58,433 nt of DNA from Armatimonadota bacterium (GTDB lineage: Bacteria > Armatimonadota > UBA5829): assembly GCA_039679645.1 (NCBI GenBank), contig JBDKUO010000016.1, forward strand, positions 1-58,433, read 5' to 3'. Below the pieces are notes generated by a model. It was not told the DNA's origin. It saw nothing but the letters and a program-made list of their open reading frames with translations, and did no database searches. The position numbers and the translations under genes are program-made. This document shows positions 20,188 to 31,642 of this stretch, piece after piece (the stretch's first letter is position 1; every line of letters starts with the position of its first letter).

Positions 20188-21036
20188 CTATGCTCTGCGA
20201 CGCCTGATTCCAATAAACGACATCAGGCCGGCTGCCAAAGCGAATATAGAAGACGGTTCGGGAACGCTGTCCAGGTAAGCAGCATTCCGGAATTCGATAA
20301 AGTCTCCGTATCCATCCTCAAAATCATACCACATAAAATGTATTGGATCTTCGCCAGGCCAGTTCCATGCATACTCCAGCGTCTGGCTGGGACCTACCAC
20401 AACCGGGTTGATCGGCGGAACCACAGGATTGGGTGGAGTCGTAAGAGCAGCAATTTCTGAAATGGTCATGCGACTGGTGGTTGTGCCGGTGAGGCGATCG
20501 ACCTGAAGCGGGCTTGTTGTCCTGTTTGCAATAACGTCGACCAGCATGCCGTTGTTGTCCTTATACCAGTCCTGCCAGTTATCCGGCAGGTCTCTTACGT
20601 CCTGACCGTTGAAGGTCCACCACCACTGGACATTGTTGAACTTGATGCCGCCATAGTTTGTAAAACCGAACATCATGCCGTTATTGACATTGATCCATTG
20701 CTCCGGGAAGGTCCAATAAAGATGAATCCAGCCATCTTCTTCCCAGGTGGTAAATGTAGTCTGTGTGGGCGTACCGGAACAGTAATAGCCGTTGGTGCTA
20801 AAATCCATAAGCTTGGTGGCTGCCCAATAGTAGGACCCATTCGCATTGAAATGCTGAGAATCGGCCTTGATCTTGATATGGAAATCATTGGCCAAAAATG
20901 ATGTGCCGCGATTTGTTATCCTGGCAAGGCTTATGCTCTGCTGGAGTGTTACGGGCTGAAGCGTCTGCCCGCAGGCAACTATCGCGAATGACATGAGAAC
21001 CAAAGCTACAACAAAAATACCAAATAATCTGCGCAT
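20188..21036 (-). CDS. PEP-CTERM sorting-domain protein
   Basis: A 282-residue secreted protein. It has an N-terminal signal peptide (MRRLFGIFVVALVLMSFAIV, cleavage near CGQ) and the C-terminal PEP-CTERM tripartite signal: VPEPSS, a hydrophobic helix (IFALAAGLMSFIGI) and a basic tail RRRRA. Such signals are processed by exosortase, which is not in this window. The middle is rich in Trp, Tyr and Asn and matches no domain I recognise. It is followed by its own terminator and preceded 35 bases upstream by another PEP-CTERM gene on the same strand. A role in the cell surface or extracellular matrix is inference. Confidence 0.88.
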   Translation of the reverse strand: MRRLFGIFVVALVLMSFAIVACGQTLQPVTLQQSISLARITNRGTSFLANDFHIKIKADSQHFNANGSYYWAATKLMDFSTNGYYCSGTPTQTTFTTWEEDGWIHLYWTFPEQWINVNNGMMFGFTNYGGIKFNNVQWWWTFNGQDVRDLPDNWQDWYKDNNGMLVDVIANRTTSPLQVDRLTGTTTSRMTISEIAALTTPPNPVVPPINPVVVGPSQTLEYAWNWPGEDPIHFMWYDFEDGYGDFIEFRNAAYLDSVPEPSSIFALAAGLMSFIGIRRRRA

Positions 21037-21071
21037 TACAAACTCTCCCTTCGGTGTTGTGTGATGTCAGC

Positions 21072-21659
21072 CTATGATCCGGCTGATCGTTTTTTGAAGG
21101 CTGCAAATGTGACCAGCCCGCTCAATAAAATTGCGATGCATGACGGCTCAGGGACTGCAATCATACTCAGAGTTGAGGACTTGATGTAACCGACATACTG
21201 GTCCTGAGCATTATACAAGTTCAGGTAGCTGCCGGGTTTATAGCTGCACTCCAGAAATATATCGAAGAAGCTGTCCGGGGCAAAACTGTAGTGTATGGGG
21301 TCATTGGTGTGCATGACCCCGCCGGGAGTGTATATCTCAAGAAACACATCAAAGAAGCTGTCGGGGGCCATAATTGCGGGCCACTGCCCAGTCGATATGG
21401 GACTGGTCCTGAGAACAACCGCAGTTTCAGACTGTGCGAGGTTCATCTGAGTCATCTGCATGGTGTAACCACCGCCCAGATTGGACTGGAAGTCGATGGT
21501 TGCAGTGCCGGATGGATTACTGCTGCAAGGCATCTCCGCGAAGATATCGAAAAAACTGCTCACGTCATAAAGCACTTCACCGGGTGGAGCGGCATTCGCA
21601 GCCGCCACACAAAACAACAACATTAGAAGAATCAATAACACAACACAAACATACCTCAT
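21072..21659 (-). CDS. PEP-CTERM protein with three SFFD-[IV]-F repeats
   Basis: A 195-residue secreted protein. Signal peptide MRYVCVVLLILLMLLFCVAA ending near ANA; C-terminal PEP-CTERM signal VPEPSC, hydrophobic helix, KKR tail. The motif SFFD-I/V-F occurs three times (residues 35-40, 101-106, 130-135), twice as PDSFFD-x-FLE. The spacing suggests repeated structural units. ATG 21659 is chosen because AGGAGG lies 8 bases upstream; a TTG directly before it is also in frame. It is probably co-transcribed with the downstream PEP-CTERM gene. I do not recognise a functional domain. Confidence 0.85.
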   Translation of the reverse strand: MRYVCVVLLILLMLLFCVAAANAAPPGEVLYDVSSFFDIFAEMPCSSNPSGTATIDFQSNLGGGYTMQMTQMNLAQSETAVVLRTSPISTGQWPAIMAPDSFFDVFLEIYTPGGVMHTNDPIHYSFAPDSFFDIFLECSYKPGSYLNLYNAQDQYVGYIKSSTLSMIAVPEPSCIAILLSGLVTFAAFKKRSAGS

Positions 21660-21910
21660 CAATCTTTCCTCCTGTATGTGGCAATCTTACCGAGTCTGGT
21701 GTTCGGTTCTCACCCTATGTTTGTTTTTGTTATGAACTCATGCATATTTATCATGACGAATAGAATATGTCAATGGGGTGTTTATACAACGGAGCGTAAG
21801 GCCGCTGAAAACAGGTAATATTACTGGTTTTGAGAATCTGAAAAGATCAGAAGGAAGCAACCAATTAACCCGATAACATAAATAGAAGTTGAAAAACAGG
21901 GAGGCTAACG

Positions 21911-23802: not shown

Positions 23803-23832
23803 TTGACAAGGGGCCTATATGGCCGGTATACT
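23803..23832 (+). promoter_or_regulatory. Promoter of the trp operon
   Basis: TTGACA (23803-23808), 18 bases, TATACT (23827-23832). Transcription is expected to start near 23839-23841, only one to three bases before the ATG of the leader peptide at 23842. Confidence 0.75.
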
Positions 23833-23841
23833 GTATATGTT

Positions 23842-23943
23842 ATGAATACAGAATCCTATTTGATCATATATGGAGGCAGTTCTAATTGGGCTTGGCGCCA
23901 CTACAACTATAGTGGAGCCGCCGCATTGATGCACGTCAAGTAG
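23842..23943 (+). CDS. trpL: trp operon leader peptide
   Basis: A 33-codon reading frame (starting MNTESYLIIYGG, ending ALMHVK) containing Trp codons at positions 16 and 18 (23887-23889 and 23893-23895) in the order Asn-Trp-Ala-Trp-Arg. It lies between a strong promoter and the attenuator structures upstream of trpE, the arrangement of a ribosome-mediated attenuator. No Shine-Dalgarno precedes the ATG and the predicted transcript start is 1-3 bases upstream, so translation may be leaderless. CCACTA/TAGTGG (starting just after the second Trp codon) form a hairpin next to the Trp codons. A competing short frame from a TTG after GGAGG (23872-23876) has no Trp and is considered less likely. Confidence 0.75.
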   Translation: MNTESYLIIYGGSSNWAWRHYNYSGAAALMHVK

Positions 23944-23967
23944 AGACACAATAATAGACAGTTTATA

Positions 23968-24069
23968 GTCGCGGGCCGCTCCACAGGAGTGTCCGCGACT
24001 TTTGGTGTGTGCGCAAGCACGCTGGCAGGTGCAAAAGCCGAGGATTAGCAGTATATCCTCGGTTTTTTT
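23968..24069 (+). promoter_or_regulatory. trp attenuator: leader hairpins and intrinsic terminator
   Basis: Two structures. First, GTCGCGG (23968-23974) pairs with CCGCGAC (23993-23999), with an inner CTCC/GGAG stem. Second, CCGAGGAT (24038-24045) pairs with ATCCTCGG (24055-24062), followed by seven T (24063-24069), a strong intrinsic terminator 42 bases before trpE. An exact antiterminator pairing could not be settled by eye; folding of 23839-24075 would be needed. The region continues to AAGGAG just before the trpE ATG. Confidence 0.75.
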
Positions 24070-24110
24070 GCGTTTTAGGCATAATCGACAAATGAAGGAG
24101 CGCAAGTTTA

Positions 24111-25649
24111 ATGAGCGCATATTATCCGGACAAAAAGGAATTCATCAAACGAGCCGGTAACGGCAATATGACGCCGGTCTACAAAGAGATATTAGCGGAC
24201 ATGGAAACCCCGGTGTCAGCATTTCGGAAGATAGTTTCGGGACAAGGGTGTCCCGAAACAACTCGGGAGGGCGAAGCTCCCGCTGAGCCATGCAACGATT
24301 ACTCTTTCCTGCTGGAGAGTGTAGAGGGCGGGGAGAGAATGGCAAGGTTCTCCTTTCTGGGAAGCGGCACTAACCTGGTCATCAAGAGCAGTGGGCGAGA
24401 TGTAGAGATTACTCGTGACGGCAAACTCGAACGCATCAGCTTAGTACCCGGCAGAGATGTCCTGCACATCCTGAAGGATGAGATGAACAAACTACGATAT
24501 GTGCCGGACCCTGATTTGCCGAGGTTTTGCGGAGGAGCGGTCGGGTTCATCGGTTACGATATGGTCAGGTTCTTTGAGGATCTGCCTGACACGACGGTCG
24601 ACGATCTCAAAATGCCTGACTGCACGCTGATCTTCACCGACACACTGCTCATATTCGATCATGTGCGCCACAAAATACGCGTCGTCTGCAACGCTCAAAT
24701 AGATGGTGACCCCGAATCGTCCTATGATCGCGCGGTCGCCAAGATCGAGAAACTGATCGAGCGTATGAAATCCCCTGTGAAAACAAGTGTCGTAAAGCGC
24801 AATACAAACCCACCGACAATTACATCCAACTTTACCAAAACCGAGTTTGAAAACGCAGTCACCAGATGCAAGGAATACATTGCGGCGGGAGACGTGATAC
24901 AGGTCGTGCTCTCCCAGCGCTTCCAGACAAAAGTAACTGCAGACCCATTCGATGTATACCGCGCTCTGCGCAGCCTGAACCCCTCCCCTTACATGTATTA
25001 TCTCGCATATGGCGATACGAAGCTGATTGGCTCATCACCTGAGATTCTGGTCACCGAGGAACTCGGCAATGTGACTGTCCGCCCGATAGCCGGAACCCGG
25101 CCCAGAGGCGCAACCGAAGAACAGGACCTCACGCTGGAGGCAGAGCTTTTGAAAGATGAGAAAGAGCGGGCGGAGCATATCATGCTTGTCGACCTGGGTC
25201 GCAACGATATAGGCCGTGTCTGCAGATACGGCAGTGTGAACGTAGACGAGCTGATGGTGATCGAGAAATACTCGCATGTGATGCACATGGTCTCAAATGT
25301 GCGCGGCAGGCTAAACCTTGATAAGGACGAGTTCGACCTGCTACGGGCATGCTTCCCGGCTGGGACTGTCTCGGGCGCTCCCAAAGTTAGAGCAATGGAG
25401 ATCATAGACGAGTTGGAACCTACAAGACGCGGCTCATATGCCGGAGCTATAGGCTATTTCAGCTACTCCGGCAACATGGATGCCTGCATAACTATTCGCA
25501 CTATTCTTATCCAAGGCAATACAGCATATGTCCAAGCCGGTGCAGGAATTGTGGCAGATTCCGAACCGGCCAAGGAATATGAGGAGACTCAAAACAAAGC
25601 TAAAGCCTTGATCAAAGCACTGAGCGCTGCAGAGGAAGGACTGGAATAA
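24111..25649 (+). CDS. trpE: Anthranilate synthase component I, with an in-frame repeat insertion
   Basis: A 512-residue enzyme converting chorismate to anthranilate with TrpG. Feedback motif [14 protein letters not shown] lies near residue 65, and the catalytic core has [31 protein letters not shown] and [24 protein letters not shown] precedes the ATG. Residues about 42-61 ([18 protein letters not shown]) are not part of the normal family: this stretch is encoded by two adjacent palindromes (24235-24258 and 24264-24282) and falls between the N-terminal strand [10 protein letters not shown] and YSFLLES, a loop that tolerates insertion. The rest of the protein looks intact, so function is probably kept. 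It starts the operon trpE-G-D-C-F-B-A. Confidence 0.96.
24235..24293. repeat. Double palindrome inserted in the trpE coding sequence
   Basis: TTTCGGGACA (24235-24244) and TGTCCCGAAA (24249-24258) form a perfect 10-bp stem around AGGG. CGGGAG (24264-24269) and CTCCCG (24277-24282) form a second stem, and the stretch continues CTGAGCC. The second part encodes REGEAPAEP, a peptide that I recall as a repeat-derived insertion in proteins of repeat-rich bacteria. Confidence 0.8.
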
Positions 25650-30894: not shown

Positions 30895-30913
30895 CAAAAT
30901 TGAGGTGATGATC

Positions 30914-31642
30914 ATGTTCTCGAAAGAACAGTTTGCCAAACTGATGGATTCTACGTTGCTCAGGCCGACGGCTACTCGCGAGGATATCACTCGGTTCTGC
31001 GAGGAGGCGGCCAACTATCACGTCGCATCGGTCGTTGTATTCCCCTTCTGGCTGCCTGTCGTCAGGCGCGCAATGGCTGAGACCGATGTCAAGATCGCGA
31101 CTGTGATCGGTTTTCCATTCGGCGCAAGCGGCAGGTCGGTGAAGGTCTTTGAAGCACGGACTGCCATCACCAATGGCGCTAACGAGCTTGATATCGTGAT
31201 CAACATAGGCGCGCTAAAGTCCGGCGAACGCAATATAGTCGAGAGCGAGATCAAGGAAATCGTGGATACATCTCGGATGACCGGCTTAACCCAGGACGCC
31301 AAGCGCACCGTCATCAAATTTATTATAGAAGCTTACTACCTGACTGATGATGAAAAGAAGATAGCATGCGAGATCATACGTGACGCAGGTGGAGACTTCG
31401 TTAAAACATCGACAGGCACCGCTGCGGGCGGAGCGACGATAGAAGATATACGTCTGATCCGAAATGTGGTCGGGTCCGATATCGGCGTCAAGGCCGCGGG
31501 CGGCATCCGCACCACAGCGCAGGCAATGGAAATGCTGGATGCGGGCGCAAGCAGGATAGGCACATCCAGCGCAGCCGCTGTCATTGATGGATACGTGCCG
31601 GAGGACTATCTGGAAAGCGCCGGACGAAGGCGCAGCAGTTGA
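30914..31642 (+). CDS. deoC: Deoxyribose-phosphate aldolase
   Basis: A 242-residue class I aldolase splitting 2-deoxyribose 5-phosphate to acetaldehyde and glyceraldehyde 3-phosphate. The Schiff-base Lys is in DFVKTSTGTAAGGAT, the second Lys in GVKAAGGIRT, and VIGFPFGASG is the DeoC signature. ATG 30914 is chosen because GAGGTGA lies 5 bases upstream; an upstream GTG/ATG pair is less likely. No other nucleoside-catabolism genes are adjacent. Confidence 0.93.
   Translation: MFSKEQFAKLMDSTLLRPTATREDITRFCEEAANYHVASVVVFPFWLPVVRRAMAETDVKIATVIGFPFGASGRSVKVFEARTAITNGANELDIVINIGALKSGERNIVESEIKEIVDTSRMTGLTQDAKRTVIKFIIEAYYLTDDEKKIACEIIRDAGGDFVKTSTGTAAGGATIEDIRLIRNVVGSDIGVKAAGGIRTTAQAMEMLDAGASRIGTSSAAAVIDGYVPEDYLESAGRRRSS

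Follow-up and report, generated by a model that had tools for sequence, protein, structure and literature searches.

The segment upstream of trpE in the window, the 58,433-nucleotide stretch of Armatimonadota DNA analysed here (contig C16 of a 3.41 Mb source genome, 99.7% complete), probably encodes a ribosome-mediated attenuator of the trp operon, combining a leader peptide predicted to be leaderless with a relay of six RNA segments. As in trp-type attenuators, a short frame carries the regulatory codons, the 1:2, 2:3 and 3:4 helices are mutually exclusive, and an intrinsic terminator lies before the first structural gene, with the Trp codons overlapping or abutting segment 1.

In the proposed mechanism, transcription would start at the leader ATG or at most 3 nt before it, and the ribosome would load on the bare 5' end of the transcript. 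With ample Trp-tRNA, the ribosome would clear both Trp codons and helix 1:2 would form behind it, leaving segment 3 to pair with segment 4 (terminator T1) and segment 5 with segment 6 (terminator T2), so that transcription would stop before trpE. When Trp-tRNA is scarce, the ribosome would stall at Trp16 or Trp18 and cover segment 1, upon which segment 2 would take segment 3 before segment 4 is made. Segment 4, thus free, would take segment 5 before segment 6 is made; with both terminators disrupted, trpEGDCFBA, or trpS-trpE in some relatives, would be transcribed.

Promoter, leader frame and operon

A sigma-70 type promoter, matching the consensus at 11 of 12 positions, occupies 23803..23832 on the plus strand, with the -35 element TTGACA at 23803-23808, an 18-nt spacer and the -10 element TATACT at 23827-23832. 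Both elements are kept in all 14 genomes that carry the leader (hereafter members). Downstream lies the near-leaderless leader peptide ORF (23842..23943, plus strand; 33 codons and TAG), which specifies the peptide MNTESYLIIYGGSSNWAWRHYNYSGAAALMHVK. Its Trp codons, numbers 16 (23887-23889) and 18 (23893-23895), form the stretch TGG GCT TGG at 23887..23895 on the same strand. The operon begins with trpE (24111..25649, plus strand; NCBIfam trpE_most, 581 bits against a cutoff of 517.7), whose Shine-Dalgarno (SD) sequence AAGGAG was read at 24095..24100 (plus strand). The gene order is trpEGDCFBA, extending from 24111 to about 30806, with G, D, C, F, B and A also matching NCBIfam models.

Conservation of the leader frame was assessed among the members, whose peptides align gap-free as far as the Trp codons (for example MNTESYLIIYGGSSNWAWRH, MITKSYLIVRGGNYSWGWRH and MKAESYLIIHGGNNKWGWRY). 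The W-x-W-R signature is invariant in 14/14, providing the conserved Trp codons that had been sought in related leaders. Of the 167 codon pairs that differ across codons 1-12 among the seven members with the GG motif, 97 are synonymous in the Trp frame (0.58), against 0.18 in column shuffles (0/1000), while the other two frames gave 18/145 and 12/151. Judged by these codon-position statistics, the frame is under selection, and the synonymous fraction constitutes comparative evidence that the leader ORF is translated, a point that an earlier note on this DNA had listed as inference. That note had also reported the promoter, the 33-codon frame, the Trp codons at positions 16 and 18 and hairpins before trpE, all of which are borne out by the sequence and the folds.

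RNA segments and alternative helices

The leader RNA folds far below its shuffled counterparts (z -4.45, 0/200). Six segments account for the alternatives: pairing 1:2/3:4/5:6 forms both terminators, whereas pairing 2:3/4:5 disrupts both. Segment 1 is CCACTA (or CTCCA), segment 2 GTGGAGC(C)GCC, segment 3 GGC(C)GCTCCAC, segment 4 UCCGCGAC-UUUU, segment 5 AAAA-GCCGAGGA and segment 6 AUCCUCGG-U7. Helix 1:2 (CCACTA / TAGTGG; 23898..23915, plus strand) is present in the MFE fold; in its CTCCA/TGGAG version 97% of alignment cells are paired with no double changes, and being nearly invariant it gives no covariation support.

Terminator T1, formed by helix 3:4 (GTCGCGG...CCGCGAC followed by UUUU), spans 23968..24003 on the plus strand with its hairpin at 23968-23999, and was recognised from folds and alignment. 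Terminator T2, formed by helix 5:6 (AAAAGCCGAGGAT...ATCCTCGG followed by U7), spans 24033..24069 on the plus strand with its hairpin at 24033-24062, on the same kinds of evidence. Helix 5:6 carries two-sided changes at 5 of 12 pairs, and helices 3:4 and 5:6 jointly show 95% of cells paired and 7 pairs with two-sided changes, in an alignment (A1) where genome G017 is misaligned in segments 5-6, so that its own counts for 4:5 and 5:6 are not meaningful. G011 and G017 lack a proper U tract in T1, and the U tract of T2 is poor in G016. A simple terminator scan of the window called neither hairpin because the T2 loop has 9 bases and T1 has only four Us; despite this miss, both are clear in the folds and conserved.

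The antiterminator, helix 2:3 (23912..23984, plus strand), pairs GTGGAGCCGCC at 23912-23922 with GGCCGCTCCAC at 23974-23984. Its stability in the window is -21.4 kcal/mol, equalled by 0/500 shuffles; across the 14 members the helix ranges from -13 to -25 kcal/mol, with 0-26 of 500 shuffles as strong. Folding of truncated RNA with a ribosome on Trp18 and segment 4 absent gives P(2:3) of at least 0.82 in 14/14, so the antiterminator for which folding had been proposed as a check is present in every member. Without a ribosome, helix 1:2 competes variably (P(2:3) reaches 0.86 in the window and approaches 1 in some relatives), and the basal state is therefore governed by the passage of the ribosome and by segment 4 outcompeting 2:3. 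Compensatory changes in helix 2:3 include C-G to U-A and A-U to G-C, and in helices 2:3 and 4:5 taken jointly pairing extends to 90% of cells, compared with 40-52% after sliding, with 5 pairs bearing two-sided changes. Equilibrium folds of the full-length transcripts form 3:4 and 5:6 despite a stalled ribosome in most members; the attenuation model hence depends on folding order during transcription, which was mimicked here by thermodynamic folding of truncated transcripts.

Proposed relay between the two terminators

The relay helix 4:5 (23992..24044, plus strand) was identified by folding and alignment and pairs UCCGCGACUUUU at 23992-24003 with AAAAGCCGAGGA at 24033-24044, the 3' arm and U tract of T1 being complementary to the A tract and 5' arm of T2. 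Nested within it, a small hairpin with a GCAA loop is seen in the folds at 24007..24022 (plus strand); similar nested hairpins occur in several relatives, and helix 4:5 is often zipped by such a small hairpin between T1 and T2. Truncated folding with segment 3 sequestered and segment 6 absent makes 4:5 dominant in 14/14, with P between 0.50 and 1.00. Compared with 62 unrelated terminators of the window's genome, the 4:5 duplex exceeds all controls in 12/14 members and is equalled by 2/62 in G016; in the window it is weak, interrupted by a C-A mismatch, with -8.8 kcal/mol matched by 10/62 controls. A mismatch in the middle of 4:5 is kept in most members. Two-sided changes in 4:5 occur at column pairs 120-164, 122-162 and 123-161. 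From these pairings we infer that helix 4:5 would disable T2 in the cell.

Initiation mode and the internal SD-like box

The predicted transcription start lies at 23839..23842 on the plus strand, 0-3 nt before the leader ATG (23842-23844), a placement based on the 9-nt distance between the -10 box and the ATG. No SD precedes the leader ATG in the window, as a transcript with this start leaves no space for it. The spacing is 9 nt in 10 of the 14 members and 10 nt in an eleventh, so 11/14 leaders are predicted to be leaderless on this measure. The near-leaderless start first proposed from the window alone is thus predicted for most members, but three relatives depart from it: G015, G016 and G017 have a -10-to-ATG distance of 20-22 nt, an SD (AGGAGA or AAGGA) and a start codon further downstream. 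Between the -10 box and the first Trp codon there are 54-55 nt in 12/14, 51 in one and 62 in one, the position of the start codon varying among members while the promoter-to-Trp distance is mostly constant. That three relatives are SD-led with their Trp codons little moved relative to the promoter argues that leaderless initiation is not essential for timing.

SD-led initiation is the main start mode in the window's genome, with GGAG, AGGA or GAGG peaks 5-8 nt before the first ATGs, and a survey of about 420 kb with crude gene calls gave no clear -10 peak at spacing 9. Given this predominance, a leaderless start looks exceptional in this genome.

An SD-like GGAGG occurs inside the leader ORF at 23872..23876 (plus strand), 10 nt before the first Trp codon, where it coincides with a peak of anti-SD pairing; its function is putative. 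Over the 14 members, anti-SD pairing of the 7-mer that begins 17-15 nt upstream of the first Trp codon averages about -7.4 kcal/mol, calculated with a generic anti-SD because the 16S tail is missing from the assembly. Codon shuffles, which ignore the relatedness of the members, average -2.0 kcal/mol at this position, with 0/300 as strong. The pairing peak at the box (GGNGG) is found in nearly all 14 members. Ten of them have conserved Gly-Gly codons there; the other four specify RS, RE, GV and RS, and strong pairing is kept in 3 of these 4. In the window, with Trp16 occupying the A site, GGAGG lies 7 nt upstream of the codon in the P site, which is the usual initiation spacing. One idea prompted by this geometry is that the anti-SD might dock at the box just when the first Trp codon moves into the A site. 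Tentatively, and with considerable doubt, we propose that one stalled ribosome controls two intrinsic terminators by relay, that the SD-like box strengthens the stall, and that the promoter-to-Trp distance, not the start codon, sets the timing, thereby permitting exchange between leaderless and SD-led starts.

Alternative explanations

The leader could instead be a conventional trp attenuator of four segments with regulation confined to T1. T2 would then serve as a fixed back-up or represent a decayed duplicate of T1, with the complementarity between them a by-product of shared origin. The weak 4:5 of the window suits this account, as does the fact that T1 alone makes a complete classical attenuator, and the 3' arms of T1 and T2 are similar enough for cross-pairing partly to follow. 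However, were T2 strong and fixed, the operon would stay blocked even in starvation, and 4:5 is kept in 14/14 with two-sided changes though T2 sequences differ between genera. Moreover, the two relatives whose T1 is without a U tract are left with T2 as sole terminator, so there T2 must be a working terminator that needs its own release. Considered with the poor T2 tract of G016, these losses indicate that T1 and T2 are not interchangeable in the members concerned. We regard the four-segment account as unlikely; the six-segment relay explains how the downstream terminator could still be switched where a U tract has been lost.

Two further alternatives dispense with the leader peptide as the sensor. 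If GGAGG were a true ribosome site, translation would start in another frame, at an NTG that shares bases with the first Trp codon, yielding a non-Trp peptide. The SD-like box does lie 8-10 nt before this NTG in members, and the NTG frame has a high synonymous fraction just past the Trp codons; that downstream signal, however, coincides with helix 1:2, while the upstream 45 nt are under strong coding constraint in the Trp frame. The NTG itself arises merely since TGG follows any base, is CTG in two members, and opens a frame whose length differs widely among members, all of which makes such a start very improbable. Hardly credible at all is a T-box or other riboswitch-type leader that senses tRNA-Trp or tryptophan directly, with the ORF incidental. 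A long, structured leader before trpE or trpS does resemble Firmicutes T-box operons, but the ORF is under codon-level selection and ribosome-controlled alternatives explain the helices. Neither Rfam Trp_leader (RF00513) nor T-box (RF00230) matched in the window or in a focused leader search at E up to 5, nor did any other family bar the small RNA IhtA, whose match (E 1.1, 17.2 bits against a cutoff of 76) was taken as chance.

Distribution among relatives

TrpE was found in 40 of 41 relatives. A single copy of the leader motif TGGNNNTGGCG...CT..A.......TGG is present in every one of 14 genomes from the same Armatimonadota order, and its recurrence indicates that the leader of the window is not a chance arrangement; it also bears out the claim that a trp attenuator with a leader peptide exists outside the usual model phyla. 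The leader is restricted to trpE or trpS operons, preceding trpE in 8 genomes and trpS-trpE in 6. The 14 are those genomes of the order that have an operon-type trpE together with upstream sequence, and they are related, not independent. Of the other five genomes of the order, G008, G009, G012 and G014 are without operon-type trpE, and in G013 trpE is cut by the contig end.

DNA similarity recovered no copy of the leader beyond the genus, and a pattern search was used instead. In 291 genomes from elsewhere in the phylum, matches are about as frequent as those of the reversed control, and among 84,980 species no match outside the order adjoins trpE or trpS. Matches in other phyla, with neither gene nearby, were set aside as chance. 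From the match rates and gene neighbours, the leader looks specific to one order.

Comparison with known attenuators

The E. coli trp attenuator (trpL; RF00513) shares Trp codons in a short ORF, helices 1:2, 2:3 and 3:4 and a terminator before trpE, whereas the leader described here is predicted to be leaderless rather than SD-led, carries W-x-W instead of WW, and has two terminators with the extra segments 5 and 6. A closer topological parallel is the enterobacterial his attenuator, with its chain of alternating helices, in which an extra hairpin separates the first hairpin from the last terminator. Its pairing scheme, A:B, C:D, E:F versus B:C, D:E, is reportedly due to Johnston et al. in 1980. 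By folding and alignment, this his-type six-segment topology is found in 14/14 members, with D:E (4:5) weak in the window. With Trp rather than His codons and a trp operon downstream, the present leader would work like a his leader without being one. The extra hairpin of the his leader has been described, with a modelled role of lowering basal readthrough (PMC1183508); the middle hairpin 3:4 here, by contrast, is also U-tracted in most members and is probably a terminator itself.

Leaderless Trp leaders are already known, so that the leaderless start is only partly novel. In the alphaproteobacterium Sinorhizobium meliloti, trpL (rnTrpL) encodes a leaderless 14-residue Trp peptide on an RNA that begins with ATG and attenuates trpE(G), and the accessible portion of the source describes no double-terminator relay for rnTrpL (PMC7298713). 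In Streptomyces lividans, leaderless Trp leader peptides precede trpE and trpS (PMC8079986), and the attenuators of Streptomyces trpL1 (trpE) and trpL2 (trpS) regulate both genes (PMC8079986, PMC1262725). Unlike the Armatimonadota leader, those of Streptomyces, an actinobacterium, are separate for trpE and trpS and carry WWW or a single W. Mycobacterial leaderless polycysteine attenuators (Canestrari et al. 2020, as cited in PMC13236596), as far as the available part of that source describes them, likewise sense an amino acid through a leaderless short ORF and differ in responding to cysteine. In the open-licence literature searched, Armatimonadetes together with leader peptides yielded only passing mentions of either term.

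Each element is thus known elsewhere, while the combination and the phylum appear to be undescribed. New here are the phylum, a proposed double-terminator relay for trp, a natural switch between predicted leaderless and SD-led starts within a single RNA architecture, and the conservation of an SD-like box ahead of the first Trp codon; the coupling of a second terminator through 4:5, the trpS linkage and the three SD-led starts had escaped the earlier note. The leader adds a phylum to ribosome-mediated attenuation, and its natural series of leaderless and SD-led forms offers a test of whether leaderless loading matters for transcription-translation coupling. The two-terminator relay suggests how tight off-states could be built without a repressor, and the conserved box upstream of a regulatory codon provides a testable case for the disputed pausing of ribosomes at internal SD sequences.

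Associated and neighbouring genes

Six relatives have trpS between leader and trpE. A second trpS type, 36-49% identical, is found elsewhere in several genomes, and both types are present in G001, G007, G011 and G015. The trpS loci noted include L005:502-1497 (G001) and G000:C43:20192-21148. The window's genome has the second type only, with no Trp leader seen upstream of it, implying that the attenuator-controlled TrpRS was lost or never gained there. Genomes G008, G009, G012 and G014, of the same family, have TrpE-like proteins only 42-44% identical, or none, a sign that tryptophan synthesis may have been lost or replaced. Within the window, deoC (deoxyribose-phosphate aldolase, 30905-31639) follows closely behind trpA and may be cotranscribed with the trp operon. 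On the minus strand, the ORF list includes two proteins at 20188-21662 with PEP-CTERM-like tails (VPEPSSIFALAAGLMSFIGIRRRR; VPEPSCIAILLSGLVTFAAFKKRS).
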